NCBI GenBank assembly: GCA_021813325.1
Contig: JAKALA010000008.1
Location: 21,191-85,190 of the forward strand
DNA from: a bacterium
GTDB lineage: Bacteria > Verrucomicrobiota > Verrucomicrobiia > Limisphaerales > UBA11358
Length of the DNA stretch: 64,000 nt
Direction of reading: 5' to 3'
Position 1 is the stretch's first letter. Each line of letters starts with the position of its first letter. Of this stretch, positions 34,689 through 58,979 are shown piece by piece. The translations under genes and the position numbers were made by a program. The notes below the pieces were generated by a model. That model was not told the DNA's origin. It ran no database searches and saw only the letters and a program-made list of their open reading frames with translations.

Positions 34689-34813
34689 ATCGTCGCTTGT
34701 CTGTGTCGTTCAAGCCAGTCCAAATCTTTACACTGGCACCACTGCCCCCGTTTTTTGGCACTACTGGCTCTCGACAGTTTGCGTGCTGACCGACAAACTG
34801 GCGGCATCATCTT

Positions 34814-36145: not shown

Positions 36146-38505
36146 GCTTTTGCGCCAAATGCTGGATGGTGACGGGACTTGCCTCCGCGCTATTTTTTCA
36201 GATTCCAAGCTCAGCCCTCAAGGCCGACTCGTTGGTGGATGCGGTCAATCCACTGATCGGCGCCAGCACGAGTATTGAATATGGCGAGGGCAAAACGTTT
36301 CCCGGAGCGGCCACGCCGTTTGGTTTGGTGCAGTTAAGCCCGGACACCATTACCGGCGGGGACAACGGACCGGGCTATTCGCACGAGCACACCACGATTG
36401 AAGGTTTCAGTTTCATCCACATGAGCGGCATTGGCTGGTATGGTGATTTCGGCAATTTTCTGGTGATGCCGACCACAGGGCCATTGCACACCGCCAGCGG
36501 GGTGAAGGGCGGGGGAGATGGCTATCGTTCGCGCTTCAGCCATGACACCGAAGTGGCCAAGGCGGGATATTATGCCGTGACGTTGAGTGATTATTCCGTG
36601 CGCGCCGAAGCCACGGCGGCACCTCATGCCGGCATTTTGCGCTTCACGTTTCCGCAGAACGATGAAAGCCGCATTCAAATTGATCTGGCTCGGCGCATTG
36701 GTGGAACTTCTTCCCGCCAATACGTCAAAGTGGTGGATGACCATACGATTGAGGGCTGGATGAAATGTCCGCCGGAATGCGGCGGCTGGGGCAACGGCGA
36801 TGGCAAGGCGAATTACACGGTTTATTTTTATGCCCAGTTCAGCCGGCCATTGAAAAAGTTTGGTGTCTGGTCGGCCGACATTCCCAAAGACTGGGTGCGA
36901 AAACGCGACGAAGTCGTCAGCCAAAAATATCGTGAGGTTGTGGCGGCCGCGAAGGTGCTGGACGGCTGCCAGGAAATGGAAGGCGATCATCTGGGCTTTT
37001 TCAGCGAGTTTGCGACGACCAATGGCGAGCCGGTTTTGCTGAAGGCCGGAATTTCATTTGTGGACGTGGCCGGGGCGAGGGAGAATCTGGAACACGACAT
37101 TCCCGGCTGGGATTTCAACGTGGTGCGGGCGCAATCAAAGGCGCTTTGGGAAAAGGCATTCTCTGGCATCGCCATCAAGGGGGGAAATGCCGTCCAGCAT
37201 GAAGCGTTTGCCACCGCGATGTATCATTCCATGCTTGATCCCCGGGCGTATTCGGATGTGAACGGCAATTATAAAGGCGCCGACGGCCGGGTGCATCGCG
37301 CCGAGCATTTCACCTACCGCACCATTTTCAGCGGCTGGGATGTGTTTCGCAGTGAGTTTCCCTTACTCACGATCATTCGCCCCGATGTGGTGAATGACGA
37401 GGTGAATTCGCTCATGCAGCAGGCGGAATTGAGCGGCAACGGTTATCTGGCCCGCTGGGAATTGGTGGCGATAGAATCCGGCTGCATGATCGGCGATCCG
37501 GCAGTCTCAGTCATTGCCGATGCGTATCTCAAAGGGATCCGCGGCTACGATGCACAGGAGGCTTACAAATTGTGCCGCCAGACGGTGGAGTTGGATCGTG
37601 AGAACGGAAACCTGCGGCCTGAATATCGCCAGCTTGGCTTTGCTCCAGGCAGTGTTTCGGTGACGCTGGAAGACGCTTACTTTGATTACTGCGCCGGACG
37701 TTTCGCGGAGGCCTTGGGCAAAACCGATGATGCCAAACGGCTCATGCAACGTTCCCAAAACTACCGGAATATCTACGATCCCGCCGTGGGCAACATGCAC
37801 GCGAAGAACGCCGACGGTTCCTGGACGAAATGGGAGGGCGCCACCAAGCAGGGGCAGGGCTGTGTCGAGAGCGATCCGTATCAGCAGGGCTGGTTTGTGC
37901 CGCAGGACGTGGCGGGGCTGATGGATTTGATGGGACACGATTATTTTGTTCGTTACCTGACCGAGTTTTTTGAGAAAACACCGCTGACCTTCAAGTGGAA
38001 CGATTATTACAACCACGCCAATGAACCGGTGCATCATGTCGCCTATTTGTTTGCCTATGCGGGCAAGCCGTGGCTGACGCAGAAATGCTCCCGCATCATC
38101 ATGGATCACGCCTATGGCGCCGGCGTAAAAGGCTTGTGCGGCAACGAAGACGTGGGCCAGATGTCCGCCTGGTATATTCTCAGTGCGGCGGGCCTCCATC
38201 CGGTTTCACCGGTGGACGGTATTTATGTCATCGGCAGCCCGCTGTTTGCGGAAACCACCTTCCAACTCGATCCGGCATATTATCCCGGCAAAACCTTCAC
38301 CATTCGTGCCCGGAACAATTCCGCGAAAAACATGTATGTGCAATCGGCCACGCTGAATGGCAAGCCACTGAACCGCGCCTGGCTGCGCCACGCGGAAATC
38401 GCCGCCGGCGGCACGCTGGAATTGGTGATGGGACCGCAGCCAAACGAGAATTGGGGATCGGCGCCGGATGAATTGCCACCGCGCAATTTTCCATCTACTA
38501 AGTAG
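36142..38505 (+). CDS. GH92 family glycoside hydrolase (predicted exo-alpha-mannosidase)
   Basis: VNPLIGASTSIEYGEGKTFPGAATPFGLVQLSPDT; GYSHEHTTIEGFSFIHMSG; TYRTIFSGWDVFRSEFPL; GNEDVGQMSAWYILSAAGLHPV. Confidence 0.92.
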   Translation: MSFCAKCWMVTGLASALFFQIPSSALKADSLVDAVNPLIGASTSIEYGEGKTFPGAATPFGLVQLSPDTITGGDNGPGYSHEHTTIEGFSFIHMSGIGWYGDFGNFLVMPTTGPLHTASGVKGGGDGYRSRFSHDTEVAKAGYYAVTLSDYSVRAEATAAPHAGILRFTFPQNDESRIQIDLARRIGGTSSRQYVKVVDDHTIEGWMKCPPECGGWGNGDGKANYTVYFYAQFSRPLKKFGVWSADIPKDWVRKRDEVVSQKYREVVAAAKVLDGCQEMEGDHLGFFSEFATTNGEPVLLKAGISFVDVAGARENLEHDIPGWDFNVVRAQSKALWEKAFSGIAIKGGNAVQHEAFATAMYHSMLDPRAYSDVNGNYKGADGRVHRAEHFTYRTIFSGWDVFRSEFPLLTIIRPDVVNDEVNSLMQQAELSGNGYLARWELVAIESGCMIGDPAVSVIADAYLKGIRGYDAQEAYKLCRQTVELDRENGNLRPEYRQLGFAPGSVSVTLEDAYFDYCAGRFAEALGKTDDAKRLMQRSQNYRNIYDPAVGNMHAKNADGSWTKWEGATKQGQGCVESDPYQQGWFVPQDVAGLMDLMGHDYFVRYLTEFFEKTPLTFKWNDYYNHANEPVHHVAYLFAYAGKPWLTQKCSRIIMDHAYGAGVKGLCGNEDVGQMSAWYILSAAGLHPVSPVDGIYVIGSPLFAETTFQLDPAYYPGKTFTIRARNNSAKNMYVQSATLNGKPLNRAWLRHAEIAAGGTLELVMGPQPNENWGSAPDELPPRNFPSTK

Positions 38506-38508
38506 CGT

Positions 38509-41079
38509 GTGTTGAAATTCATTAAACGGCTCGCTTGGATGCTCGCGTTTTGTTGCGCCGGCAATGGGGTCTTCGCCGCGCCAACGGCCTGGTTTGTGGA
38601 CGGATACCACGGCGGCATTTATGGTCATTACCCGCCGTCCTTCACCCGTTTCATGGTGGATGCCTTGAACGCCCATCCAGATTGGAAACTGAACTTGGAG
38701 ATTGAACCCGTCACCTGGGATTTTGTTCAAACGAACACGCCGGAAGACTACGCCGCCTTCCTAAAGCTTGCGGCCGATCAATCCGTCAAGGGCCGGATCG
38801 AATTTGTGAACCCCGCCTACGGGCAAAGCTATCTCTGGACGGCTTCGGGAGAGAGCATGATTCAGCAATTCCATATCGGAATGCGCAAGATTCGGGAACA
38901 CTTTACGAATGCGGAGTTTCAAACTTATAGTTCTGAAGAACCTTGCTTTACCAGCGCGCTGCCGGGAATTCTCAAGTCGTTTGGTTTTGATCACGCCGTG
39001 TTGAAAAACCCCAATACCTGCTGGGGCGGTTACACCCGGGCGTTTGGCGGTGAACTGGTGAACTGGATTGGGCCGGATGGCACTGGCATTCCGACGGTGC
39101 CGCGCTACGCAATCGAATCGCTCAAACCCGGTTCCACCTGGGAAACCATGGCTTGCGCCAATGCGCCTGAATATGTGGATGCCGCGATTCAAGCGGGCAT
39201 TCAACATCCGGTTGGAATGTGTTTGCAGGACGCCGGCTGGCGCTTCGGGCCGTGGCTGGATTATGTGCATGGCTCCTATGAACCGTCGATTTCCACGACC
39301 TGGCGAAATTATTTTGAAAACATCGCCATCAAAACGCCGGGGCAGGATTGGCATTTCAACCAGGAAGACGTCCAGGTGAGCCTGGTTTGGGGTTCCCAAG
39401 TGTTGCAAGGCATCGCCCGGAATGTTCATCGCGCGGAAAATCGCATCGTGGCTGCTGAAAAGCTGGCCACGCTTGCCTCCGTCTTTGGAGACGAGAACTG
39501 GCCAGAAGCCAAATTTGAAAACGCTTGGGAATCGCTGTTGTTGTCGCAACACCACGATTGCTGGATTGTTCCTTACAATGGCCGGCGTAACAACACCTGG
39601 GCTGACAAGGTTGCCGCTTGGACCAGCAACACGGTTCAGCAAAGCAGCGAGATTGCCCGAAATGCGATGGAAACCTTGGCTCCACCAGGGGCGAATGACG
39701 CTCCGTATCAGGTGCGGGTTTTCAATACTCTTGCGATTGGCCGGACGAATGCGGTGATCGTGGATCTGCCGGAACATTGGGCGGGCAATCCAATCATCAA
39801 AGATCAGACTGGAAAAGCGATGGCGTCCCAAGGTATCGACGGAAATCAAAAGCTTCTGTTTTCCGCTCCGGTGCCGCCGCTGGGCTACGAAATATTTGTG
39901 ATGGAGCCCGGCGCCAAGTCGGATGCGCCCAAGCCGCTGGTCTCCGTCCAAACCAACGGATGCACCATCATCGACACGGATCTTTATCGAATCGAACTTG
40001 ATCCTGCTCATGGAGGTGTGATTCGCAGCCTGGTCACCAAGCAATTGAGCCGGCGTGAATGGTGTCAGCCTGGCGGCGAACGTTCCCTCAACGAATTGCG
40101 GGGATATTTCACTCAAGCCGGGAAGTTTTTTTCGTCCGCCGACAACCCAGCCAGGATTGAAATTCTGGAAAATGGCCCGGTGCGCGCACAGGTTCGTGTG
40201 ACTGGCCAGATCGCTTCAAATCCGTTTTCTCAAGTCATCACGGTCACTGAGGGCCAGCGGCGGATCGACTGCCATGTCCGGATTGATTGGCAGAGCAATG
40301 TTCGGGTAGGTTCCGATTTTGAAACAAAGGATTCCTTCCATCGCGAACACGATCGGAAAGCCTTTTACGATGATCGCTTTAAATTGCAGGTTTTGTTCCC
40401 GGTCAGCTTGAAACAGCAAAAAATATTTAAGGACGCTCCGTTCGACGTTACGGCCAGCAAGCTTCCAGACACATTTTTTGATTCATGGAGGAACATTAAA
40501 AACAACATCATTTTGAATTGGGTGGATGCGTTTGATCCCGAAGAAAAGCTCGGATTTTCTTTATTTACCGATCACACCACCAGTTACGCGCATGGCCCCC
40601 AAGATCCACTCGGGCTGACGCTGCTTTTTTCCGGGGTGGGGTTATGGGGACGCGATTATCATATTCACGGTCCAACCGATGTGAATTATTCGTTCATGCC
40701 GCATGCTGGCAACTGGGATCAAGCGCAAGTGGAAGCAGAGAACGGCGCGTGGAATGAGCCGTTACTGGCTCAAGTCTATCACACGATGAACAACGCGAAA
40801 TCCGCTTGTCTATCCTTGCTTGCTTTTGATCAATCGGGCTGGGTTGTGCCAACCATGCGCCTGGAGGATGGGAAAGTGATCGTTCGTTTGTTTAATGCCA
40901 CGGAAAGACCCATCACTCAACAAGCCGTTTATGCCGGATCCGTCGCCAAAGTGGAGCAGGTGCAACTCAACGGGGCGGTCATTCGCGAAATTCCGTTTGA
41001 GAAATCGGCTGATGGCAAAAGCCATTTTCGCATCAGCTTGCCGGGCTTGGGGGTGGGAACGTTACGAATTACTCGTTGA
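38509..41079 (+). CDS. GH38-like glycoside hydrolase (divergent alpha-mannosidase family)
   Basis: WFVDGYHGGIYGHYPPSFTRFMVDAL; ALPGILKSFGFDHAVLKN; LLLSQHHDCWIVPYNGR; C-terminal beta domains. Confidence 0.75.
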   Translation: MLKFIKRLAWMLAFCCAGNGVFAAPTAWFVDGYHGGIYGHYPPSFTRFMVDALNAHPDWKLNLEIEPVTWDFVQTNTPEDYAAFLKLAADQSVKGRIEFVNPAYGQSYLWTASGESMIQQFHIGMRKIREHFTNAEFQTYSSEEPCFTSALPGILKSFGFDHAVLKNPNTCWGGYTRAFGGELVNWIGPDGTGIPTVPRYAIESLKPGSTWETMACANAPEYVDAAIQAGIQHPVGMCLQDAGWRFGPWLDYVHGSYEPSISTTWRNYFENIAIKTPGQDWHFNQEDVQVSLVWGSQVLQGIARNVHRAENRIVAAEKLATLASVFGDENWPEAKFENAWESLLLSQHHDCWIVPYNGRRNNTWADKVAAWTSNTVQQSSEIARNAMETLAPPGANDAPYQVRVFNTLAIGRTNAVIVDLPEHWAGNPIIKDQTGKAMASQGIDGNQKLLFSAPVPPLGYEIFVMEPGAKSDAPKPLVSVQTNGCTIIDTDLYRIELDPAHGGVIRSLVTKQLSRREWCQPGGERSLNELRGYFTQAGKFFSSADNPARIEILENGPVRAQVRVTGQIASNPFSQVITVTEGQRRIDCHVRIDWQSNVRVGSDFETKDSFHREHDRKAFYDDRFKLQVLFPVSLKQQKIFKDAPFDVTASKLPDTFFDSWRNIKNNIILNWVDAFDPEEKLGFSLFTDHTTSYAHGPQDPLGLTLLFSGVGLWGRDYHIHGPTDVNYSFMPHAGNWDQAQVEAENGAWNEPLLAQVYHTMNNAKSACLSLLAFDQSGWVVPTMRLEDGKVIVRLFNATERPITQQAVYAGSVAKVEQVQLNGAVIREIPFEKSADGKSHFRISLPGLGVGTLRITR

Positions 41080-43839: not shown

Positions 43840-46413
43840 TTAGCTGTAGGTGTTATAGACACTTCGAACGGTCAGCGCCTGTTTAAACTCGGCGAGCGCC
43901 AACTGACGTTTGGTGGTCACGTTTATCTCGACGGAGTGGCCGGCGTTTAGATGCACAAAATTATCCGAGTAGCGGGCATCAAGGTCACCCAAATTCAACC
44001 AAACCCACAGGGCGGGCTTTTCCGCGGATACGATGACGCGGAACCCCGTTGCAGTTTGCTTCACGTGGGTTTGCAATTTTGGGTCCACGAGTTCCAATTC
44101 CTTGGGGCGACCAAACGTGACCAGATTTTGCGACACGACCTGGTCTGACTGGGTGAGCTTGAGCCAAAGCATAAGGTTGTTTTCACCGTGTTGTTGCGCC
44201 AGCGAATCCAGTTTTAGTGTGCTGACAACCTGACTGTGTCGCGCGGGCGATTCCACGCCGATTTTCCCGGAGTCAAGCGTGACTCCCTGTAGATTGCTGA
44301 CGAGCCATTCAGCATTCCCTTTGAACGGAGCGCCCAAATCCGAGGTGAGATAGATGTCCACGGTTTTATTTTTGATGTCTTCCAGCCCGGAGATCATCAC
44401 CGGCGCATAAAAATGACGGGCGGCGTAATGCAGCGCCTTCCAGCGTCCGTAATAATCTACCGAAGCCCAGCTGGCCACGGGCCAGCAGTCATTGTATTGC
44501 CAGAACAGGCAGCCCATCGATTTGGGCATGTGCTGCCGCCAATATTCGGCTCCCAGCTTGATGCCGTAGGCTTGCACCAGTTGACTTACCCAAAGCGTAT
44601 TGTCGAAATCTTTGCCAGTGCGGAAATAGTTTCCGATCATGTTTTTGATCCGGTCATTTCCCAACGGACAGCGCTGGTGCCACTTCATGACCTCGGACAT
44701 GGTGGAAGCCCGATCATTGCTGGCATTGGTGTAAGAATGAACGGTGCGCGGTTCCGGGTAGGATTGATAGCCGAATTCGCTCATGAACCCGCTCAGTTCG
44801 CGATAGGCCTCAAACGTGCGCGCGCCCCACCAGACTTCCCAGTAATGCACATCGCCACAGTCCGGGCTGCCGGAGACGTAACTGGTCTGCGGCGAGCAGG
44901 TCTTGACCTCATCGCCTAAAACCTCCTTGAACAGGTAATCATAACCATCGCGGCCCATGGAAAACACCGACCAGTCGTCTTTGACCAGCAGGGAAATTTC
45001 GTTATTGCCGCACCAAACCGCAATGCAAGGGTGATGGCGAAGGCGCTTCAGATTATCGCGCGCTTCGTGGCGCACGTTGTCCACGAATTGCGCGTCAAAG
45101 GCGGGGTAACTGGCGCAGGCAAATTTAAAATCGGCCCACACGCAAATTCCCATTTCGTCGCAGGCGTCGAAGAGCGCATCTTCCTCGTAATAGCCGCCGC
45201 CCCAAAAGCGCAGCATGTTCATGTTCACCGCCGCGGCATCGGCCACATAGCGGCGCAGGCTTTCAGCCGTGACGCGATTGTAAAAAGCGTCCGACGGAAT
45301 CCAATTGGCGCCCTTGGCAAAAAACTCCACGCCGTTCACCTCAAAGCGAAGCGGATTGCCGGCAGCTTGATTTAAAATTCCCAGCGTGCGTAATCCGATG
45401 CGTTTGGAGACGGAATCGAGAATGCGCCCATCGTCATCAAGCAAATCGACCGCCACTGTGTAAAGCGGCTGTTCACCCATCCCGTTCGGCCACCAAAGGT
45501 TCGGATGCTTGACCGTCAATTCACAGCGCGCTTCGCCATCAATCAATTTAACCTTTGCCTTGTCGATGGCCTGGCGCTCGTGAGACACCGCAATTTTGGC
45601 ACACAGCGGTTTCTTGGCGACAGCCAAGGCGGACAATTCGACTGTGAGCGTTACGCGATTTTTGACCGAGTGATCCTGCAAGATCAGCACATCATCAATC
45701 CTGGCTTCGTCCATTGCCTCCAGTGAGATGCTTTTCCAGATCCCCGCCGTGATCAACGTAGGCGCCCAATCCCAGCCAAACTGGCAGGGCTGTTTGCGCA
45801 ACCAGGCCCGCCCGGTGACGCCGCGATTTTCATTCCGCTTTTCCTCGAGTTTCTTGGTAAAATTGGCAGCGGATTTGATAAGAATTTCAATTTTGTTTTC
45901 GCCCTCGTGCAGGAGCGATTTGACGTCAAATTCCCAGCTCCGGAACATGTTGTCGGTTTCGGCCATTTTTTGACCGTTGACACTGATCGTGGCCAGCGTG
46001 TCCAAACCTTCGCAACGCAACAAAACAGTTTTGCGGGCCAGCAGTTCGGGCGGCACTTGAAAGGTCCGGCGGAACAGCCAGTCGGTCTCACCGATCCATT
46101 GCACGTCTTTTTCTTGATCGCGGTAAAACGGGTCAAGAATTTTACCCGCCGCCAGCAAATCCGTGTGGATGCAGCCCGGAACCGTGGCCGAAATCCAATC
46201 ACCCGTGCCGGCTTTGCTTGCCTGCCATTGCCCATCCAACGATAGGATTTGCCGTTTGTTTACCGCGGCAGACGCGGTGCGCGCAAACATGCTGCCGCCC
46301 ACGCACGCGGCGGCCGTGGCCATGGCGGAAGTGGTCAGAAACTGACGGCGCGAGACGCCGGCGGCGGGGGATGATGAGAAATTCATGCGTAAAGGCACTA
46401 GAGTTGATGTCAT
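43840..46413 (-). CDS. Tat-exported GH2-family glycoside hydrolase, predicted beta-mannosidase
   Basis: VSRRQFLTTSAMATAAACVGGSMFA Tat signal; WIGETDWLFRRTFQVP; LRFWGGGYYEEDALFDACDEMGICVWADFKFACASYPAF; CIAVWCGNNE. Confidence 0.9.
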   Translation of the reverse strand: MTSTLVPLRMNFSSSPAAGVSRRQFLTTSAMATAAACVGGSMFARTASAAVNKRQILSLDGQWQASKAGTGDWISATVPGCIHTDLLAAGKILDPFYRDQEKDVQWIGETDWLFRRTFQVPPELLARKTVLLRCEGLDTLATISVNGQKMAETDNMFRSWEFDVKSLLHEGENKIEILIKSAANFTKKLEEKRNENRGVTGRAWLRKQPCQFGWDWAPTLITAGIWKSISLEAMDEARIDDVLILQDHSVKNRVTLTVELSALAVAKKPLCAKIAVSHERQAIDKAKVKLIDGEARCELTVKHPNLWWPNGMGEQPLYTVAVDLLDDDGRILDSVSKRIGLRTLGILNQAAGNPLRFEVNGVEFFAKGANWIPSDAFYNRVTAESLRRYVADAAAVNMNMLRFWGGGYYEEDALFDACDEMGICVWADFKFACASYPAFDAQFVDNVRHEARDNLKRLRHHPCIAVWCGNNEISLLVKDDWSVFSMGRDGYDYLFKEVLGDEVKTCSPQTSYVSGSPDCGDVHYWEVWWGARTFEAYRELSGFMSEFGYQSYPEPRTVHSYTNASNDRASTMSEVMKWHQRCPLGNDRIKNMIGNYFRTGKDFDNTLWVSQLVQAYGIKLGAEYWRQHMPKSMGCLFWQYNDCWPVASWASVDYYGRWKALHYAARHFYAPVMISGLEDIKNKTVDIYLTSDLGAPFKGNAEWLVSNLQGVTLDSGKIGVESPARHSQVVSTLKLDSLAQQHGENNLMLWLKLTQSDQVVSQNLVTFGRPKELELVDPKLQTHVKQTATGFRVIVSAEKPALWVWLNLGDLDARYSDNFVHLNAGHSVEINVTTKRQLALAEFKQALTVRSVYNTYS

Positions 46414-46675
46414 TTTAATGAACCCAAAGCAACTGTCGCTGGGCGGGTGTGCCAAAATTGCGGGGCACACGTGCCAGTGAATTGACGTGATGGAACCGAA
46501 TCCAGACCATTTGGCCATCAATTTTGAAACCAGCGAAGACGGACGATCGGGAGCGACTGTATTGGTAATTTAACGAGACTTTCTGTAAAAGCGTGAAGCC
46601 TTTTTTCAAGATTAAATCTGGTTTTTATCGGCGATTTTTCTGGCCACGGTCGCGAATATCCGTATTTGTTTCGCC

Positions 46676-49600
46676 ATGCGCCAGAAAACACGTTTGAGCC
46701 AGAGGACGAGATTCGTCTGGGCCGACGTATTGGGAAAATCATTGGCGATCGGCGGGACGGCGCGTGAATGGTCGGTTTTTGCTCAAAGCTCGCGGCGGCG
46801 GCGGGCGATGCTAAAATGGTTAATGGCAACCTTTGCCGCCGGCCTTTTGCTTGAGGCAACGACGCCTGTCGCGGCGGAAAATTTCCAACGGGAGCCGGCG
46901 CCGGTCTTCACCAACATTTGCCAGGTGCTCACGCGAACGGATGCGTTTCCTTTGCGTTCCTTGTTGCCGGTCCGGCTGAATGGCGTGGTGCTGGTGGGAG
47001 GAAGACATTCGATTGTCGTGCGATTTGACGGCTCGTCGTCCATCCAAATCCTGCCGTTGCCCTCCGAGCATCCTGTTCTCCAGCGTGGCGACCGCTTTGA
47101 GTTGGAAGGCCGGTGCCTGGTGGATGCCACCAATTTGATTTTTGAACCGGAACCATTGATAGACAATGACGGTTTGCATTCAGCTTATGAACGTTCCGCC
47201 GGCATTTGGTGGTCTCGCGGTCAACATGAAATGGCGCTGAATTACTTTAACCATGGAGGAGAAGGCGCCGTAAAATTATTTTTGGCCGGACCTGGAATGG
47301 CGCGGCAGCCACTGCCGGCAGACATGATGTTTCATGTTTTGACCAGCGGCGACCGCCAATCGTCAGCTAATTTGCCGGGCTGGGGGTTCAAATGCTACGA
47401 GGGAGCCTGGGGTAATTTACCGGATTTTTCGAAGCTGAAGCCGTATAAAACCGGCGTTTGTTCCCGCATAGATTTTGACTTGGCGGATCGAGAGACGAAC
47501 TTCGGAATGGCGTTCAACGGCTTTCTGGAAGTCCGCCAACTGGGATTATACACGCTTTCCCTGGAATCGGACGATGGCTCCCAATTATTCGCTGATCCGC
47601 CGCAATACCGAGTTGCGACCGGTGGTAAAACTAACCTTGCCACCTTGCGTCAAGTGGCTGCCGGCCAGTTTCTCCCGGCGGATGATCCTGAAAAATTTTG
47701 TGCCCAAATGGAAGGCACCGTGACATTTGCCGTTCACGAAGGAGACTCGTTGCGGATTGAAATTGTCAATGGCCGCAGCCGTGCGCTGGCGATTGTGCCT
47801 GCGGTGGCCGCCGCCGATTTTCAATGGCTGTTAGGCGCACGCATTCGGCTGGCCGGCATTTGCGAGAGCGTTTTTAATTCGGCCGGTTATCGGGTGGCCG
47901 GGCGGATCGAGGTGCCCGGGCTGGAGCAATTGCAATTGCTGGAAGCGGGGGAGAAACTGTGGCAAACGCAGCCGCCCATGTCTGCCGCCGCAGTGTTGCG
48001 CGCGGCCGGTTCGAATGCTGTTCCGTCGCTGGTGAATCTGACCGGAACATTGCGGCGGCAAGATTTGGATGGCGCGTGGCAGGTGGCGGATTCGACCGGA
48101 AGTTTCTCCCTGCGCCTTGCCGACAGCCAGTCGCTGAACAGCGGCATGAAGGTGCGGATTTTGGGGAAAGTCGAAACGGTTTCCAGCAACACGTTTGTGG
48201 TGAGCGGCCTGGCACGCCGTCTGGGCGAAAATGGAAATGGCAGCGGCCAATTGCCCTTGTTGACGGGCGTGGAGCAGATCAAGCAGATGAGCCGGGAAGA
48301 GGCCAAGCGGGGTTATCCGGTCAAAGTGCGCGGGATCATCACGTTTGTCTGGCCCGACGCGGGCTTTTTTTTGCAGGACGCCAACTGGGCGATCGATGTG
48401 CGGATGAGCCCTTCGGCGGCCACCAGTATTCCGAGCATCGGAGATTACTGGGAAGTCGAAGGCGAAACCTTTGCTGAATTTGCCCCGAACATCCGGGCCA
48501 CGCACGCCCGGCGCCTTGGTCCGGGCAGTTTGCCCGACGTGGTGCATCCCAACTGGAGCCAGTTGATCGACGGCAGTCTGGATGCGCAATACATCGAAGT
48601 GCAGGGGGTGGTTTCGCGCACGGATACTAATTTGCTTTATCTTTTGACCTGGGGCGGTCGCATCAAAATCAAACTGCCGGAAACTTCTTTTGACATGCTG
48701 CAACGATTCGAAGGAGCGCTGGTGCGCGTGCGCGGTTGCTTGATTCCCGGTCGCGATATTGTCACCCAGCAGGTCAAGCTGGGGGAATTTGAATTGCGCA
48801 ATGCCTCGGTTGCCGTGGATGAACCCGCGCCCAAGGATGTTTTTGCTCTGCCGTTGAAGCACGCCTCGGATCTTTTGCTGTTCGATGCTCACGCCAGCCC
48901 GATTCAACGGGTAAAATTGCGGGGTATCGTTTTGCATCAACGGGACGGCATGTGTTATTTCATGGACGGAGCCAATGGAGTTCGCCTGGCGCCGAAATTG
49001 GATGTCACCCTGAAGCCGGGCACTCGGATTGAAGTGGTGGGGTTTCCGGATTTGAATGCGCCTTCGCCGCTGTTGCGCGATGCAGTGGTGCGAGCCATCG
49101 GGACCGGCCCGCTGCCAGCCGCGACGGTCCTGTCCGGGGACGATTTGGTGGAAAATCGTTACGATGCCACGCGCGTGAAAATCAGCGCCACGCTGGTGTC
49201 GCGTCGCACCAGTGAAACTGATCAAATTTTGGAGATGCGTTCCGGCACGCGTCTGTGGCTGGCACGGCTGGCCCTGGCGAGCGGAGCCTTGCCCAATCTG
49301 GTCTTGGGCAGCGAACTCCAGTTGACCGGGGTTTATGCCGGGCAGGGCGTGGGTGGCGGCGAAGCCGGACGCCAGCCGGCCTCGTTCGAGTTGTTCCTAA
49401 ATTCGCCGTTGAACGTAGCGGTATTAAAAGAGCCGTCGTGGTGGACGGCGCGACATGCCCTAGTTGTCGCCGGCGGACTGCTCGGCGTGTTATTGCTGGC
49501 GTTTGGCTGGATTACCGTCCTGCACCGGCAGGTGGACCAGCGGACCACCGAATTGAAGCAGGAAATTGAGGACCACAAACGCACCGAATTGCAGCTTGAA

Positions 49601-50533
49601 GAGAAAACCACCATGTTGACGCGGGAAATTGAGGAACGGGTGAAAATGGAGGCTGAAGTGGAGCGGGGACACAAACAATTGCTGGTGACTTCGCGTCTGG
49701 CCGGCATGGCGGAGGTGGCCATCAGCGTGCTCCATAACGTGGGCAATGTCATGACGAGCGTCAATGTTCTGAGCGCCTCGATTGTGGAATATGTTCGCCA
49801 CTCCAAAATTTCGAGTGTGGGACGGCTGGCGGAATTGCTGGGAACTCATCGTTCTGATTTGCCGCGTTTTTTCAAGGAGGACCAACGGGGCCAGAAAATG
49901 CCGGATTATTGCGCACGGCTTTCCCAGCACCTGGCGGACGAGCAAAAACAGTTGCTGGATAAAGTGCGCGTTTTGAACGACAACATTGAGCACATCAACG
50001 AAATTGTCGGCATGCAACAAAGTTACGCGAAGGTTTCGGGGGTTTTGGAGCATTTGCCGCCCGCCGAGGTTTTGGAGGACGCCATCCGCATGCACGGACA
50101 GTCGCTGGAACGTCACGGGATCACGCTGGTGCGCCACTTTAAACCGGCCCCCATGATGACGATGGATCGCCACAAAGTTTTGCAGATCATGTTTAACCTC
50201 CTGGAAAACGCCAAATATGCCTGTTTGCAGGGCAGCGCCGCCGAAAAACAAGTGGTGGTGGAACTGGAAACCAGCCGCCAAGATTTTATCAAAATCACGG
50301 TGGCGGACAATGGCATGGGCATTTCGCCAGAAAATTTGAAGCGCATCTTCCGGCAGGGTTTTTCCACGCGACGCGATGGCCACGGTTTCGGTTTGCACAG
50401 CAGCATCTTGGCGGCCCAAGACATGGGCGGCAGCATGACGGTGAGCAGCGATGGAGTTGGCAAAGGGGCCAAATTTATGTTGGAGATTCCAATCGCAGTC
50501 CAAAAAAGTAATCTTCAACCGCAGCCGTCATGA
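46676..50533 (+). CDS. Giant membrane sensor histidine kinase with periplasmic PA14-like and repeated OB-like domains
   Basis: ~900-aa extracytoplasmic region; TM HALVVAGGLLGVLLLAFGWITVLHRQV; H-box GMAEVAISVLHNVGNVMTSVNVLSA; NLLENAKYACLQG; DNGMGISPENLKRIF. Confidence 0.85.
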   Translation: MRQKTRLSQRTRFVWADVLGKSLAIGGTAREWSVFAQSSRRRRAMLKWLMATFAAGLLLEATTPVAAENFQREPAPVFTNICQVLTRTDAFPLRSLLPVRLNGVVLVGGRHSIVVRFDGSSSIQILPLPSEHPVLQRGDRFELEGRCLVDATNLIFEPEPLIDNDGLHSAYERSAGIWWSRGQHEMALNYFNHGGEGAVKLFLAGPGMARQPLPADMMFHVLTSGDRQSSANLPGWGFKCYEGAWGNLPDFSKLKPYKTGVCSRIDFDLADRETNFGMAFNGFLEVRQLGLYTLSLESDDGSQLFADPPQYRVATGGKTNLATLRQVAAGQFLPADDPEKFCAQMEGTVTFAVHEGDSLRIEIVNGRSRALAIVPAVAAADFQWLLGARIRLAGICESVFNSAGYRVAGRIEVPGLEQLQLLEAGEKLWQTQPPMSAAAVLRAAGSNAVPSLVNLTGTLRRQDLDGAWQVADSTGSFSLRLADSQSLNSGMKVRILGKVETVSSNTFVVSGLARRLGENGNGSGQLPLLTGVEQIKQMSREEAKRGYPVKVRGIITFVWPDAGFFLQDANWAIDVRMSPSAATSIPSIGDYWEVEGETFAEFAPNIRATHARRLGPGSLPDVVHPNWSQLIDGSLDAQYIEVQGVVSRTDTNLLYLLTWGGRIKIKLPETSFDMLQRFEGALVRVRGCLIPGRDIVTQQVKLGEFELRNASVAVDEPAPKDVFALPLKHASDLLLFDAHASPIQRVKLRGIVLHQRDGMCYFMDGANGVRLAPKLDVTLKPGTRIEVVGFPDLNAPSPLLRDAVVRAIGTGPLPAATVLSGDDLVENRYDATRVKISATLVSRRTSETDQILEMRSGTRLWLARLALASGALPNLVLGSELQLTGVYAGQGVGGGEAGRQPASFELFLNSPLNVAVLKEPSWWTARHALVVAGGLLGVLLLAFGWITVLHRQVDQRTTELKQEIEDHKRTELQLEEKTTMLTREIEERVKMEAEVERGHKQLLVTSRLAGMAEVAISVLHNVGNVMTSVNVLSASIVEYVRHSKISSVGRLAELLGTHRSDLPRFFKEDQRGQKMPDYCARLSQHLADEQKQLLDKVRVLNDNIEHINEIVGMQQSYAKVSGVLEHLPPAEVLEDAIRMHGQSLERHGITLVRHFKPAPMMTMDRHKVLQIMFNLLENAKYACLQGSAAEKQVVVELETSRQDFIKITVADNGMGISPENLKRIFRQGFSTRRDGHGFGLHSSILAAQDMGGSMTVSSDGVGKGAKFMLEIPIAVQKSNLQPQPS

Positions 50534-50564
50534 GTTGTTCCAACCTGAATTGATTTTACCGATT

Positions 50565-51995
50565 ATGCCGATCGAAACAGCCTCCGATTCCGTCTTCGCC
50601 CGAATTCTGGTGATAGATGACAATCCCAGTGTGCATGACGCCTTTGATGGAATCTTGCGGGGCATGGTTGGCAATGATGAACTGGACGCGGACGAGGCGT
50701 TTATGTTCGGCAAAAATCCCGGCGACAAACCTGCCCGCCCGAAATACGAAATCGAGCACGCGATGTCGGGTATGGAAGGGATCGACAAGGTGCGGCAGGC
50801 GGTTGAAACCGGGCGACCCTATCAAGTTGCTTTTGTGGATGTCCGCATGCCGGGCATTGACGGGGTGGAAACCATCGAACGATTTTGGAAGCTGGATCAG
50901 CAGGTTCAGACCGTCATCTGCACCGCTTACGCGGATTACCGGTGGGAAGATTTAGCCAAACACCTGGGAGCGACGGATTGTCTGCTGCTCTTGAAGAAAC
51001 CTTTTCACAACATCGAAGTGTTGCAGATGGCCAGCACGCTGTCGCACAAATGGTTTCTGGCCAAACAGGCGGCGTTGAAACTGGAGCAAATGGAACGGTG
51101 GGTTTCTCAACGCACGCAAAAATTACTGGAAATGCAGCGGCGGGAAAATTCCAAGGCGGGAGAAACCGGCCACCCGGCGGCGGATGCGACTTCGGTTGAG
51201 TCTGCCCCCGCAATGATTGCGGAAAGCGAGTTGCCGGTGATTTTGCTGGTCGGCGGGAATGGCGATCAATTGAACGCCGTTCGAACAGGTTTGGCCGGCA
51301 CCTACAATCTTCTGGCGGCAACGGAGCTTGGGCAGGCCACGACGACGGCCGAAGAGAATGTTCCAGACACTATTTTGGTGGATGCCGCCATCGCCGATGA
51401 TGGCGGACTGCGGCTTTGCGCTGATTTCAAACAACGTCCAATCACAAGCCACATTCCCGTGATTTTACTCACAACGGACGATTCGGATGTCGCCCGGATG
51501 CGGGCTTTGGAGGCGGGCGTGAGCGAATTTCTGGTGAAACCGCCGCGGCTTCCGCTGCTGCGCGCCCGGTTGGATAATTTGCTCGAAAACCGGCGCAAAC
51601 TTCATGAGCATTTCCAGCAACTCCACAGCGTGCTGCCTCGCGAACTGGCGGCGAACAAAACGGAGGCGGAATTTCTTCAGCGGGTGGTGGCCATTGTCGA
51701 AAAAAACCTGCCGGATTATGAATTCGACGTAGAAAAGCTGGCCCGGCAGCTCGGGGTCAGCCGGCGACAATTATTTCGGAAGTTCAAAGCCGTGGCCGGT
51801 TGCACGCCCAACGTGTTTATGCGCGACATCCGGCTCAAACACGCGGCGAAACTGCTGGCCGAATCCCAATTGACCGTTTCGGAAATCATCTATGCGGTGG
51901 GATTTTCCGATCCTAAATACTTCCGCACGGTTTTCCGGGAACGGTTTGGGGTTTTGCCGGGCGAATACGGGCGGTCTTCCAGGCCTGAGGCTTGA
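50565..51995 (+). CDS. Response regulator with two receiver domains and C-terminal AraC HTH
   Basis: ILVIDDNPSVHDAF...FVDVRMPGIDGVETIERF; second REC ILLVGGNGDQLNAV...ILVDAAIADDGG...VPVILL-like; AraC tail LARQLGVSRRQLFRKFKAVAG...VSEIIYAVGFSDPKYFRTVFRERFGVLPGEY. Confidence 0.92.
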   Translation: MPIETASDSVFARILVIDDNPSVHDAFDGILRGMVGNDELDADEAFMFGKNPGDKPARPKYEIEHAMSGMEGIDKVRQAVETGRPYQVAFVDVRMPGIDGVETIERFWKLDQQVQTVICTAYADYRWEDLAKHLGATDCLLLLKKPFHNIEVLQMASTLSHKWFLAKQAALKLEQMERWVSQRTQKLLEMQRRENSKAGETGHPAADATSVESAPAMIAESELPVILLVGGNGDQLNAVRTGLAGTYNLLAATELGQATTTAEENVPDTILVDAAIADDGGLRLCADFKQRPITSHIPVILLTTDDSDVARMRALEAGVSEFLVKPPRLPLLRARLDNLLENRRKLHEHFQQLHSVLPRELAANKTEAEFLQRVVAIVEKNLPDYEFDVEKLARQLGVSRRQLFRKFKAVAGCTPNVFMRDIRLKHAAKLLAESQLTVSEIIYAVGFSDPKYFRTVFRERFGVLPGEYGRSSRPEA

Positions 51996-52004
51996 TTGCC
52001 TGAA

Positions 52005-52023
52005 CCAAGCCATTCGGGCTTGG
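52005..52023 (+). terminator. Possible stem-loop terminator after the AraC-type regulator
   Basis: CCAAGCC attcg GGCTTGG, 10 nt past the stop; no strong T-run. Confidence 0.4.
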
Positions 52024-52094
52024 CACCTTTGCCCCTCATCTTTGGCACGCCCCGCCTGCGACAGGCCGGTTGAGGTTTTGCTATATCTTGGAGC

Positions 52095-52212
52095 ATGTCA
52101 CCCCTAAGTCGCAATGACGCCCGTGTTGTCTCGGATCATATGCTCTTCAGGAAGTTGCCAAAACGGCGCTTCGGCCAGAGCCTTTGCGGATGGTCATGCA
52201 GAAATGCTCAAA
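52095..52212 (+). pseudogene. Decayed C-terminal fragment of a DUF1559-type prepilin
   Basis: Reading around 52149-52212 gives SGSCQNGASARAFADGHAEMLKWRG, resembling the HNGA-x-FSFADGHAEI-KW prepilin tail; no N-terminal methylation segment nearby; upstream similarity (ARVVSDHMLF) is in another frame. Confidence 0.4.
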
Positions 52213-52396
52213 TGGCGCGGCTTGCACATCAAACCAATTGTCTCAACCAAGCCATGCCACCGGTTTGCCGCCACCCTCTCGGCGGGCAATTTTTTGAGAG
52301 ATATTCGCTGGTTGTCCCGTATGCCTTCCATCACGGGTGGCCACCAAGTCTTTAGAGTATTTTCACCGATTAATTTTCGTTGCAACCCCAAAACCT

Positions 52397-55300
52397 ATGA
52401 ACAAAAAACAAACATTCGCTGTTGCCTCCACGTCGGTTCTGGCTGCCGGCATGGCACAAGGTGCCATCGTGTATTCAGGCCCGATTTCGTATGCAATCAC
52501 CGGTAATGACTCCTACCCGGTCGATTTGAATCAAGATTCAAACATGGATTACATCGTCCACTTCGATGGAGCCAATGGAGACAATCAACTCAAACCCTTT
52601 GTGGATAGTCGCAACACGAATCCTAACGCCTGGGTTCTTTCCAAATCCAATAGCGGCGCGCCCGTGAGCCCGTTTGGATTCACCAACGACGCCAGCTACA
52701 TGGCCACCTATCCGACCAACAAAGTCGGCTATCTCTATCAGGACGGCGGTGGCAACGTCGTGGGTGATTGGTCTTCCACCGCCGACACCGAAGGTTACGT
52801 CGGCGTGGAGTTGAATGACGGCGTTTCGACGAATTACGGTTGGATTCACCTGATTTACAAAGCCCAATCCGTAAACACTAAATCGCTGGTGCTGGTTGAC
52901 TACGCCTACGAAACCGCATCCGGCAAGGGCATCATCTTCGGGGCCACCAACACTCCGGCGGCCCCCATTATCTATGTTGGGCCATCCGCGCAAACCGTGG
53001 GCAGTGGCAGCGATGTGACCATGTCGGTGACGGCACTGGCCGATCCTCCGCCATCTTATCAGTGGCAGGCTGGCGCGGTCGGCAGCGGTGTTTACACCAA
53101 TTTGACCGACAACGGGCGCTTTTCTGGAACAACCACACCCACATTATCAATTACCGGAGCCACGCAATCCGACACGGCGGACTACATCGTGGTGGTGAGC
53201 AACACGCTTGGCAAAGCCACGAATGCGCCTCCCGCCACGTTGAATGTGCTGAATCTGATTCTGGGCACCCCGCAACCGGCGCAAGCCCGTATTTTCGCCG
53301 GCCAGAACCCCAGCTTTAATATCGGCGTGTTATCCGGCGTTCCCACGGGATTCCAATGGCAGAAGGATGGCACCAATGTGCAGGATGGAGCCAAGTATTC
53401 CGGGACGACCAGTTCCAATTTGATTGTGAACGGGCTTACTTCGGATGACTCCGGGAATTACGATGTGGTTGTGGATTCAGCCGGCGGTCCCGTGACCAGC
53501 GCCAATGCAAACCTTGCCGTGGTGGCCACCAACGGCGGCGCTTATGAAGCCGAAACGCTGGCGGATGGCCCGTTGGATTATTTCCGGCTGAACGAAACCG
53601 AATTGCCCGCCACCAACAACGTGGTCGCCTTTGACAATATTCGTGGCCGGAATGGCATTTACGGGATCGATGTGTTAAACGGCTCCGTGAACTATGGCAT
53701 CGCCGGTCCGCGGCCAGCGGATGGGTTTGTCGGATTTACGACCGATAACGCGGCGATTACCACCTCTCTAAATGACACCAATGCTTTGATTTCTCTCGCG
53801 CCTTGGAATCTCTACACCAATACCGTCACCATCTGCGCATGGATTAATCCGCAAGCCCAGCAGGTCAGCGGCGCTGGCGTGGTTTACACCCGCAGCACCA
53901 ACAACATGGTTTGCGGCCTCGCCTATCATGGCGCTGCGGATACCAACGGCCAATACAGCCTGGGCTATAACTGGAATGACCAAATGTTCGCGTGGAACTG
54001 GACTTCCGGCCTGAAGGTGCCGCAAAACCAGTGGTCGTTTGTGTCGCTGGTGGTTACCCCCACGAATGCCACCGTCTATGTCATTAATACCAACGGCAGC
54101 AATTTTGCTGTCAACACGGCGAATCACGCTCCCCAGGCATTCAACGACACGATTATCATCGGGTCGGATCCGGCTTCTGCGACCGGCGGCCGGAATTTCG
54201 CCGGCAGCATTGATGAGGTGTCGGTCTTTGGTTATTCACTGTCTCGGGATCAAATCTACCGCCTTTATGCGCGGGCGATTGGCCAGGTTGCCTTGCCGCC
54301 GCAAATTACCCAACAACCTGTTTCACAGATGCTCTATGCCGGGCAGACATCGCACCTGCGTGTCAGCGCAATCGGGTCCGATCCATTGTCGTTCCAATGG
54401 AAAGCCGGTTCCGGTGGCGTCTATACCAATCTTGATGGCGCCACCAACAGTTCGCTGGCGATCCCCAATTTTTCAGCAGGCAAGGTGGCGGATTATGTTG
54501 TGGAAGTCTCTAACAATGGCGGCTCGGTTTCCAGCACTGTGGCCCATGTGGGCTTGTATGCCGGAACGCCCGGAATCTACGATTCCACCGTGCTGGCTCT
54601 TGGCGGCAGTTCCGGTGGCTTGGCTGCCTTCTACCCGTTGGACGAAACCACCGATCCAGCTCTTGGCGGAGCGGTCGCCTTTGACACCGCCGGAGGATTC
54701 AACGGCATCTACGGCATCCCGGTGATGAACGGCAATGCCAACTACGCCATCGCTGGCCCGCGTCCGGCTGATGGCTTCATCGGCTTCAGTCCGACGAACA
54801 CGGCGGCCCGGTTCACCACCGCATTGGGTGGGCAGTCGGAAATTGTCTGTCAGCCGTTGAACCTGACCACCAATGCCCTGACCATCACCGCCTGGATCAA
54901 TCCGGCTTCGCCGCCGCAACAATGGGCCGGCTTGGTTTTCTGCCGGGGCAATGGCGGCAATGTGGGGGGATTGGATTTCACCGAGCTTAACGGTTCGGGC
55001 GAAACCTGTCTCGGCTATCACTGGAAAGACAGCTTCGACACTTACTCTTGGGTTTCTGGTTTGGTGCCGCCGCAAAATCAGTGGTCATTCGTGGCGTTGG
55101 TGATTGATCCTGCCACGACGAACGCGACCATTTGGATGATGAATACCAATGGAACCAAATCGGCTTCCAATTTCACCACCAACAATCTGTCGCCTATGAC
55201 GTTTGCCGCGAATACCACCATCGGAAATGACCCGTATGACACGAGTTCAGGCCGTGTTTTTGACGGTTCGATTGACAGCGTGGCCATCTTCCCGCAGGCG

Positions 55301-55525
55301 CTGACACCGGCGCAGATTCAAACGCTCTATTCCGGAGCGATGGGCATTGCCGCCGTTAACATCCAAATCCATCAGGTCGGCAATCAGATCGAGCTGGATT
55401 GGCCGCGTGGCACGTTGCTGGAAGCGGACAGCCTCAACGGACCGTGGACGACAAACTACGCGGTTTCGCCCTATCTGCTGGCGCCCGAAGCCCCACAAAA
55501 ATTCTACAAGGTCAGCGTGCAATAG
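52397..55525 (+). CDS. Large secreted protein with Ig-like and two LamG-like domains
   Basis: Signal peptide MNKKQTFAVASTSVLAAGMAQGA; Ig-like repeats (YQWQAG..., FQWQKDG..., FQWKAGSG...); two tandem LamG modules sharing NYGIAGPRPADGFVGF / NYAIAGPRPADGFIGF. Confidence 0.85.
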   Translation: MNKKQTFAVASTSVLAAGMAQGAIVYSGPISYAITGNDSYPVDLNQDSNMDYIVHFDGANGDNQLKPFVDSRNTNPNAWVLSKSNSGAPVSPFGFTNDASYMATYPTNKVGYLYQDGGGNVVGDWSSTADTEGYVGVELNDGVSTNYGWIHLIYKAQSVNTKSLVLVDYAYETASGKGIIFGATNTPAAPIIYVGPSAQTVGSGSDVTMSVTALADPPPSYQWQAGAVGSGVYTNLTDNGRFSGTTTPTLSITGATQSDTADYIVVVSNTLGKATNAPPATLNVLNLILGTPQPAQARIFAGQNPSFNIGVLSGVPTGFQWQKDGTNVQDGAKYSGTTSSNLIVNGLTSDDSGNYDVVVDSAGGPVTSANANLAVVATNGGAYEAETLADGPLDYFRLNETELPATNNVVAFDNIRGRNGIYGIDVLNGSVNYGIAGPRPADGFVGFTTDNAAITTSLNDTNALISLAPWNLYTNTVTICAWINPQAQQVSGAGVVYTRSTNNMVCGLAYHGAADTNGQYSLGYNWNDQMFAWNWTSGLKVPQNQWSFVSLVVTPTNATVYVINTNGSNFAVNTANHAPQAFNDTIIIGSDPASATGGRNFAGSIDEVSVFGYSLSRDQIYRLYARAIGQVALPPQITQQPVSQMLYAGQTSHLRVSAIGSDPLSFQWKAGSGGVYTNLDGATNSSLAIPNFSAGKVADYVVEVSNNGGSVSSTVAHVGLYAGTPGIYDSTVLALGGSSGGLAAFYPLDETTDPALGGAVAFDTAGGFNGIYGIPVMNGNANYAIAGPRPADGFIGFSPTNTAARFTTALGGQSEIVCQPLNLTTNALTITAWINPASPPQQWAGLVFCRGNGGNVGGLDFTELNGSGETCLGYHWKDSFDTYSWVSGLVPPQNQWSFVALVIDPATTNATIWMMNTNGTKSASNFTTNNLSPMTFAANTTIGNDPYDTSSGRVFDGSIDSVAIFPQALTPAQIQTLYSGAMGIAAVNIQIHQVGNQIELDWPRGTLLEADSLNGPWTTNYAVSPYLLAPEAPQKFYKVSVQ

Positions 55526-55624
55526 CGATCGATCCTGTAGTATGTCGAGCGGCGGAGCGGGTTGTTGACGCTCCGCCGCTTTTTAAATCACCACCATGCG
55601 ATCCGTCATCGTAGCGGCGGATAA

Positions 55625-58600
55625 TTGCAAACAATACCAATGATTGTTGTGGATTTTCGGAAATCGAAATCGATTGCTCATTTAGCACTTTGCCTGGCGT
55701 TACCATTCCTTTTCATCTCTTCCCACGCGGCGATTTTGGAGAACGGCAGTTTTGAATCGGGTCTGGCAGGTTGGAACACCAATGTTTCCAGCGGTGGCGC
55801 GGCGTCCTTTGTGGTCACCAACAGCCTGGTGCATACCGGCAGCAAGGCGCTGGTGGTTTCCGTGACCAACGCGGGTTCGGCGACCAACGCGGTCCAATTG
55901 CTACACTCCAGTTTTACCGCCAGCCCCACCAACACCTATGTGCTGCGTTTCTGGGCCAATTCCGACGTGAAGTTTGCGGATATGAACGTCGTTCTGACCG
56001 GAGCCACGCCGGCTTTCCCCGAAATTCCATTTAACATTTCCACGAACAACAACGGCTACCAGGAATACATCTATTCCTTTCGCGCATCAGGCGAGGTTTC
56101 CATCGGTTTTAACTTTAACACTTCATCCAACAATTATTATCTGGATGACGTCGAAGTGCTGGACGTGAATAACACCAACGGCTGGGACGTGTTGATGACT
56201 TATCTCTGGCGTTGGGGACAAATGGACTACGCTAAAACCAATCCCGTTGGCTGGGGCAGCGGAGACAATAGCAAATCCGTGCTGTTGCCGGACGGCAGCG
56301 TGCTCTGGATTTTTAACGATTCGTGGATGGCGAACTTGAATTTCTACTCGAACATTCATGGCGGCGGGAACTTTCCGCGCAATTGTGCCGTGCATCAGGT
56401 TGGAACCAATTTGTATCCGTTATCCATCAATACCTTTTTCGTGCCCACCAATCCGGCTGACTTGTTCTGGATCGGTGATGCCGTCGTGGACAACAACAAG
56501 GTGCGCGTGCTGTTGAGCGACATCAACGCGACCTCCATCACACGCCTGGGCACGGCGATTGGGACGCTTTCGGATCTAAAACTGGAGAGCATCGATTACA
56601 TTCCCGCCACCGGACCCGATGATTACAACCAGGTCGTGAATGGCAACGATGGTTACTATTATATTTATTGGTCCACAAACGCTTCGATCAATCCATTTTG
56701 GTCGCCAACGAATCTGGTTAATGTCGCCCGCGCGCCCGTTGGCTCCCTGTCTGACAATTCCGCCTGGCGATTCTGGGACGGCGCGAACTGGCAAACCAAT
56801 CATCTTCAAACGTCGGCACTGAAAGGTTTGGTCGCTCCTTGGTCCTTTACCCGGCTTGGACCCAGCAATTACGTCGCCGTTTACATGCCCACGGTGAGCC
56901 TCACGATCAAAGCCCAATTTGCCACTTTGCCCATGGGACCGTGGACCCCGCCAATCCCGATATTTAACACCTATGGCGAATGGGGAGAATTGAATTACAT
57001 GCCCAACATCTGCGCCGGAACCGGCGATGACGGAATTTACACCATTTGTTACTCCGATAACGGCTCACCCGATAATCTGGCCAAGGTGGCTTCCGACAAG
57101 TCGTATTATATGCAGCATTTCATCAAGGCGAATCTCCGCCAGATGTCGCCCTACACGCCATTTGACATCGCCGCCTCGCACAAGTTTTCGGGAACGATTT
57201 TGGGTGCCAGCGGCATTGGCAGCAGCACGGCCGGCAAGGTGTTCGACAACGATCTTACCACCTACTTTGATGCCATCGGCGGCTCGGGGTGGGTGAGCAT
57301 GGATTTGGGCGCGTTGAATCAAAAAATTCTAAGCCTGATTCGTTATTGTCCGCGCGCCAACAACGCCAGTCGCATGGTGGGCGGTGTATTCCAAGGCGCC
57401 AATGCTGCGGACTTCAGCGATGCGGTAACACTCTACACGGTGCCTTTAACTCCCATCGAAGGGTTCTTTACCACCGTTTCCATTCCCAACACCACGCCAT
57501 ATCGCTATCTGCGTTACCTGGGCCCGGCGGGGTCGTATTGTAATGTTTCGGAAATCCAATTTTACGGCGCCACGATACCGGACGCGCCCGCCAATTTCAC
57601 GGCAACTCCGGGCAATCATCAGGTGCAGTTGTCGTGGTCAAACGGTTCGGAAGCCATATCGTTCAACGTATCGCGCGCGATCAGCACCAACGGACCGTTT
57701 GAGCGAATCTTCTCCGGCACAACCAACACGGCCTGCATCGATGCCGGCTTGCAGAATGGCCTGACGTATTATTATCGCGTCACGGCGGTGGATGTCGGCT
57801 TGGCAAGCACCAATGTGGCCACGACATTTGCCACGCCGTTTGGTCCGCCCGATGAACCGGTCAATCTGGTCGCCGTAGCCAGCACCAATCATGCGGTGTC
57901 ATTGTCCTGGGCTGGTGATTTGAGCGCTGTGGGGTATGTCATCAAACGTTCCACCGTGAGCGGTGCGGCTGGAGAAACAGTCGGTTACGCCGGCATCACC
58001 CGATTCACCGATCAGGCCCCAGTGAATGGCACCACTTATTACTACGTTGTGGCGGCCACGAACAATTATGGTAACAGTGCCGATTCGGCTAAAGTCAGCG
58101 CTCAACCCGGTGGATATGGAAGCTGGCTGGCTACATCTGGAGCCGTGGCTTGGTGGCGATTGAATGAAATATCCGGTTCAACGGCGCTTGACTCGGTTGG
58201 CTTTAACCATGGCACAAATAGTTCAACGGTTAAACTGGGAGTCGCCGGCTCCGGTGGCGACGGCTTCAGTTCTCCGCATCGTGCCGCGCATTACAATGGC
58301 TCGGATGCCTTCACGCAGATTCCCAATCTCATCGGCGCCGGCAATTTTACCATCGCGTTCTGGGTGCGCACCACGGCGAGCGGGGGCACGCCGAACTGGT
58401 ATAACGGCACCGGGTTGGTGGATGGCGAAGTGGGTGGGGTTACCACTGATTTTGGGACGGCTTTGGTCGGCGGCAAGTCGCTTTTGGCGTTGGCAGTCCT
58501 GACACAACCTTGCTGTCGAGCCAGTCCATCAATGATGGTCAATGGCACTTTATCGCAGCTACGCGCAATTCCACCACCGGCACCATGCTCGTGTTTGTGG

Positions 58601-58979
58601 ATGGCGTGCCGGGCGCGGCGCCCACTCTGGTCCCACGGGGCCCCGACAGGCTGCGGCCAATTTGCGCATTGGCAGTTTGCAGACGGGAGTCAGCGGCTCG
58701 TTCTTCAACGGCGATATTTCGGATGTGTCCATGTTTGATCAAACGTTGGGTGCTTCGCAGATCAATACGCTGTATCAAGCGGGTGCGGGAATCTTTTATG
58801 ATGTTGCTTTGGCACCGCAATGGGCAGGCGGTCATCTCCAGTTTAGCTGGCCGGGCGGGGGAAAACTCATGCAGGCGGATCGTTTGGATGGCCCGTGGAC
58901 AAAAGTGAATTCCGCCACTTCGCCCTATTCGGTTACGGCGACGGAATCGCAAAAATTTTTCCGCATCCAAGTTCAATGA
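55625..58979 (+). pseudogene. Large secreted CBM/DUF5005-like/discoidin/Fn3/LamG protein split by two apparent 1-nt frameshifts
   Basis: Reading frame moves 2 -> 1 -> 0: ...DFGTALVGGK | FGVGSPDTTLLSSQSINDGQWHFIAATRNSTTGTMLVFVDGVPGAAPTL | GPRQAAANLRIGSLQTGVSGSFFNGDISDVSMFDQTLG...QKFFRIQVQ. Could be assembly error rather than a true pseudogene. Confidence 0.75.

Follow-up and report, generated by a model that had tools for sequence, protein, structure and literature searches.

A split HTCS-like kinase-regulator pair and its predicted alpha-mannoside regulon in Verrucomicrobia

Results

Analysis of a 64,000-nucleotide stretch of verrucomicrobial DNA (henceforth referred to as the window) revealed a sensor kinase gene and an adjacent gene for a regulator with two receiver (REC) domains and an AraC-type DNA-binding domain. 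We consider it probable that this pair is a split activator, resembling the hybrid two-component system (HTCS) regulators of Bacteroidetes, of a dispersed alpha-mannoside regulon, and that it was built from modules of three older systems. A more specific reading, which we also favour though with less assurance, is that an intact receiver from another kinase class drives the AraC domain via a pseudo-receiver, that the sensor has been exchanged at least twice, and that the system governs a dispersed alpha-mannoside regulon of Verrucomicrobia through a defined operator. Glycan gene regulation in Verrucomicrobia is little described (narrow searches of the literature on this subject found no paper), and in the present case a regulator is joined by a candidate operator sequence and a list of predicted targets.

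A PA14/OB sensor joined to a VLHNVGN transmitter

Both open reading frames named in the initial annotation, a 1285-aa sensor kinase and an adjacent dual-receiver AraC regulator, were found. The kinase frame (46676..50533, + strand) reaches 1285 aa when read from its first ATG; judged by the position of the signal peptide, translation likely starts at Met45 (ATG 46808), where a signal-peptide-like sequence opens. A transmembrane helix near aa 925-949 (approximately 49448..49522, + strand, placed from sequence; helix 858-872 in the structural model) gives a periplasmic part of about 870-880 aa, which agrees with the ~900 aa previously proposed to lie outside the membrane. The AlphaFold model of this sensor (46877..49495, + strand; mean pLDDT 89.5), searched with Foldseek, comprises one OB-like domain, a PA14-like domain (47114..47692, + strand) and about six more OB-like domains leading into the transmembrane helix; the count of about seven OB-like units was made by eye from the strand pattern of the model, and the PA14-like region sits between units one and two. 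The best matches of the model in the PDB are tandem OB-fold proteins (CTC1, 6.8e-11; p204 HIN, 2.4e-10), with AsnRS and cold-shock OB folds also among the matches and with low global TM-scores, since many small domains are being compared; the structure prediction thereby bears out the repeated OB-like segments of the initial annotation. The PA14-like block suggested there is likewise upheld by profile comparison: the Pfam score is sub-threshold in the window kinase (0.0016) and above the cut-off in the homologue at locus L151 (3.4e-10), and a profile of the region built from 22 sequences (A3) matched the solved PA14 proteins 6qdi (4.2e-22) and RsgI3, 6qe7 (1.4e-10). Because a search of the PDB with the isolated domain model returned no fold match with E <0.001, the assignment to PA14 is, at the level of fold, consistent rather than proven.

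On the cytoplasmic side a coiled linker connects the transmembrane helix to a DHp region (approximately 49673..49900, + strand), which contains the VLHNVGN H-box with the predicted phospho-accepting His1020 (49733-49735, + strand) and is followed by the catalytic ATPase domain HATPase_c (50165..50494, + strand; Pfam PF02518, 2.9e-17). No HisKA model of Pfam matches the window kinase; the combination of HATPase_c with an H-box histidine after a transmembrane helix is that of a two-component sensor histidine kinase. The H-box had been described as unusual. This cannot be maintained, and we rejected its reading as an oddity: the sequence GMAEVATxVLHNVGNVLNS is kept nearly invariant across ~40 kinase relatives, and VLHNVGN is the usual H-box in its kinase class, which occurs in 51 of the 286 genomes sampled from the taxonomic class of the host. 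A literature search on LHNVGN kinases found no paper. A REC1-type protein is encoded directly downstream in 63 of 96 VLHNVGN kinase matches. In one genome (G093, L157 7110-15298) two VLHNVGN sensor kinases are encoded in tandem.

The two receivers of the regulator are not equivalent

The regulator gene was assigned to 50565..51995 (+ strand), its start having been moved by homologue alignment from 50451, where a longer frame opens. The initial annotation had given its domains as two RECs and an AraC HTH, all of which were found with Pfam; the receivers, however, are not equivalent. REC1 (50601..51020, + strand) is intact, with D56/D57, D130, T158 and K182/K183 invariant in five homologues. REC2 (51234..51590, + strand), an HTCS-type receiver, has a degenerate active site: none of the five homologues compared has the whole set of acidic pair, Asp, Thr and Lys, which the receivers of HTCS proteins (L160, L161) do have, and in the window REC2 the acidic pair is gone (GGN), with Asp, Thr and Lys retained. 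We infer, mainly from the missing acidic pair and from the REC2 of the relatives, that REC2 is a pseudo-receiver, so that only REC1 looks phosphorylatable. The AraC-type DNA-binding domain follows at 51738..51974 (+ strand; Pfam HTH_18, 6.5e-25).

A very unlikely alternative is that the pair is an ordinary sensor kinase with its response regulator, important only locally, and that the two RECs both act in a phosphorelay. REC1-type proteins usually continue into further kinase modules, so relay logic exists in the family, and the three residues retained by the window REC2 would fit such a role. Against this, the incomplete catalytic set is shared by all five homologues, the pair comes without an HPt or a second kinase, and the unlinked operator sites described below speak against a purely local role. 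We therefore keep to the reading in which REC2 is a pseudo-receiver. Phosphorylation of the REC relieves its inhibition of the AraC domain in HTCS proteins (PMC11253607), and a pseudo-receiver that separates REC1 from the DNA-binding domain is relevant to the way in which the REC-AraC units of HTCS are held inactive.

The pair combines modules of three signalling systems

As judged from sequence comparisons, the kinase-regulator pair is a chimera of modules from three older signalling systems. The first supplied the sensor. Sensor relatives occur in 86 of the 286 sampled genomes of the host's taxonomic class, and nearly all of the long ones carry a HisKA_3 (NarX-type) transmitter (ARDLHD), many adjoining a NarL-type regulator; these PA14/OB kinases (e.g. 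L090-L106) have the periplasmic sensor architecture of the window kinase, whereas in the window pair both the transmitter and the response regulator have been replaced. The sensor tree places the window kinase with L150 and L151 in a clade (100/97) nested among the HisKA_3 sensors. The regulator at L152 is of the same kind, but its kinase has a sensor from another OB clade; sensors have therefore been exchanged while transmitter, REC1 and output stayed together. The second system comprises the Verrucomicrobia pairs of a VLHNVGN kinase with a REC1-coil-(PAS)-kinase protein, for which the nearest NCBIfam matches, far below cut-off, are EspC/EspA of Myxococcus. With these the window pair shares its transmitter, the cognate REC1 and the gene order, and amino acids 1-200 of the regulator match their REC1-coil proteins; it differs from them in its PA14/OB sensor and in having REC2-AraC, not further kinase modules, as output. 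That output came from the third system, since amino acids 205-473 match the C-termini of ~1300-aa HTCS proteins (E 1e-55), L160 and L161 among them. The pair is in this sense a natural modular rewiring, in which sensor, transmitter and output derive from different systems and the match between transmitter and REC1 was kept.

The full-length REC1-REC2-AraC arrangement is rare. Among 320 genomes of the order it was found only in the window, in G477 (two loci), in G467 and in G349, that is, at four loci in three other Verrucomicrobia genomes, one of which (G477) belongs to the same genus as the window genome. The 286-genome sample of the class yielded no further full-length example (G246 matched over part of its length), and in a contig scan of 84,980 species the only full-length match was the record of G477 itself, a Verrucomicrobia subdivision 3 MAG. 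All five REC1-REC2-AraC genes adjoin a VLHNVGN kinase. Kinase and regulator are separate frames at each of the four loci whose contigs contain the pair in full, as they are at L153, where the kinase is cut by the end of the contig. Since most of the genomes concerned are drafts in tens to hundreds of contigs, the chimera might be suspected to be a misassembly, or a wrong reading of frames, in one metagenome-assembled genome. We give this explanation virtually no weight: it is refuted by three other genomes, in which the REC1-REC2-AraC order recurs (46-63% identity) and the homologue frames are open and free of internal stops.

A predicted direct-repeat operator at the pair and at glycan genes

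By comparing promoter regions we obtained a shared 27-bp sequence, which on the coding strand reads GGCAC-N17-TGGCAC or, in a longer form, GGCAC, N13, TTTTGGCAC, and thus consists of two direct GGCAC repeats, spaced by 22 bp, and a CCCC core. The initial annotation had proposed mapping candidate AraC sites near 33-46 kb and 52-59 kb; the motif occurs three times in the window, and the number expected from shuffles is 0.00. Predicted operator site 1 (46449..46475, + strand) lies between the GH2 beta-mannosidase operon and the kinase. The GH2 beta-mannosidase-like gene (43840..46386, - strand; Pfam GH2 domains; 70% identical to its L151 homologue) is a predicted target, together with an esterase gene (42979-43746, - strand) and a phosphodiesterase-TPR gene (41069-42937, - strand) predicted to be co-transcribed with it. 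The GH2 start is probably 46386 and not 46521, as both the TAT-like signal and the operator spacing then agree with L151 (63 bp from start to site 1 in the window, 62 bp in L151). Site 2 (52022..52048, - strand) lies between the regulator and a LamG/Ig gene, which is, with the following DUF5005-like/fn3 gene, a predicted target (52397..58738, + strand). Site 3 (34735..34761, - strand) lies upstream of genes for a GDSL esterase and for GH92 and GH38 alpha-mannosidases (34814..41079, + strand; Pfam), a predicted target operon; a sulfatase completes the window cluster. Two further features of the neighbourhood may be recorded. A pseudopilin gene remnant (52153-52332) lies between site 2 and the LamG gene, in a place occupied at L150 by an intact pseudopilin gene, which the remnant matches by tblastn at 1.6e-7. 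A separate pair of a HisKA_3 kinase and a NarL-type regulator, unrelated to the chimeric pair, adjoins the sulfatase gene (30941-32919).

That the pair might serve the adjacent glycan cluster, as first suggested, gains support from synteny at two other loci and from the operator motif shared by the glycan genes. L151 keeps the pair together with homologues of GH2 (70%), the esterase (62%), GH38 (63%) and the DUF5005-like protein (53-57%), and L150 keeps it with LamG (53%) and the phosphodiesterase-TPR protein (69%); at L152 a GH92 gene adjoins the pair. The motif adjoins the pair at L150, L151 and L152 as well as in the window. Conservation of the site between L151 and the window could partly reflect common descent of the GH2 promoter, and unlinked sites at GH92 genes are better evidence. 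Searching with the motif alone gave such sites upstream of a GH92 gene in the window's own genome (contig C32); in G477, upstream of GH92 (twice), of a sulfatase gene and of a DUF5005 gene; and in G349, upstream of a pseudopilin-GH106 region. Not every GH92 gene has a site (two of nine do in the window's own genome), so the regulon would be selective. C32 has two copies of the operator with its flanks, 2.3 kb from each other (L192 7902-7928 and 10233-10259), which surround a sigma-factor/secretin-like frame upstream of GH92.

The sites are also consistently placed relative to genes and promoters. All 18 listed sites share one orientation relative to the next gene, and a -35/-10-like pair lies at a fixed 10-11 bp downstream of the sites with a score of 143, where 1000 shuffles averaged 92.5 and reached at most 108 (no other offset scored above 106); both statistics are partly post hoc, because the list mixes pair-adjacent sites with sites found by motif and because its last two sites (G314, G492), from genomes without a detected regulator, were kept for their positions at a GH99-like and a GDSL gene. 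On the predicted promoters, this placement is the layout of an AraC-type activator beside a -35 box.

In a search of ten genomes, exact motif matches occurred only in three of the four that bear the regulator. Across 320 genomes, a match was present in 4 of 4 with the regulator and in 14 of 316 without it (Fisher 7e-6); as the motif had been discovered in G000, the window's own genome, and in G477, leaving these two out gives an independent comparison of 2 of 2 with 14 of 316 (p 0.002). An exact site in G361 was taken as chance on account of its orientation, which is that of its gene, for a HisKA_3-like kinase. Matches with a CGTGCGCA core in genus g16 represent a different conserved sequence and were excluded from the count; a conserved GTGCCAAAAAATCGTGCGCAAAGTGCC, with the same outer repeats and a different core, recurs in several genomes (L206-L210, L202; genus g16 and others).

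A few genomes without a detected regulator of this kind have sites as well (G314, which is only 80% complete, ahead of a GH99-like gene, and G492 ahead of a GDSL gene), so another AraC protein could use the motif. It follows that motif and regulon might be real and yet be bound by a different AraC-family regulator, the pair being a neighbour and perhaps itself a target. The many AraC proteins of the genome and a second AraC gene beside the pair at L152 would also fit this explanation, which we regard as rather unlikely: the motif tracks the chimeric regulator across the 320 genomes, it stands beside the pair at all four loci named above, and its direct-repeat form and spacing are as expected of HTCS-type AraC domains (PMC3878776).

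Proposed mode of action and comparison with HTCS regulators

In the proposed scheme, the periplasmic PA14/OB sensor would bind a mannoside or a breakdown product of one, whereupon the VLHNVGN transmitter, to judge by its conserved residues, would autophosphorylate His1020 and pass the phosphoryl group to Asp130 of REC1, the partner type encoded with this kinase class. REC2, presumably no longer phosphorylated, may act as a fixed connector through which the state of REC1 determines whether the AraC domain is held or released; REC1 would then have to control the REC-AraC contact indirectly. The motif suggests that an AraC dimer binds the pair of GGCAC repeats, which are spaced by 22 bp and lie shortly before weak -35 boxes, and so could activate dispersed alpha-mannoside genes encoding GH92, GH38, GH2, esterases, a sulfatase, LamG and DUF5005 proteins.

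A function like that of the Bacteroidetes HTCS, with a different sensor and domain split, had been anticipated in the initial annotation, and the match to HTCS C-termini and the 22-bp direct-repeat motif at glycan genes point the same way. Systems such as HTCS_Man of B. thetaiotaomicron (PMC3878776; PMC11253607) have the REC-AraC output end in common with the window pair. Their motifs are direct repeats with an average of 21 bp (PMC3878776), and the motif of the window pair is likewise a direct repeat, spaced by about two helical turns, at glycan genes; HTCS_Man regulators control alpha-mannan loci (PMC3878776), as is predicted for the window pair. In contrast, HTCS carry sensor, kinase, REC and AraC DNA-binding domain in one polypeptide, whereas the window pair consists of two proteins, has a PA14/OB sensor, a VLHNVGN transmitter and an extra, intact REC1, and, in the window as in its relatives, the REC next to the DNA-binding domain appears degenerate at the level of sequence. 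The pair would work like an HTCS and yet, because of the split and of this receiver, falls outside the family as defined.

The window's own genome encodes a second OB-sensor VLHNVGN kinase (L159, contig C31, 5935-9351). We considered it as a second copy of the system and rejected it, as no regulator adjoins it and the best motif score nearby, 11.9, is within the chance range. Its surroundings contain a GH92 gene with a PA14 tail, a sulfatase and a GH127 gene.
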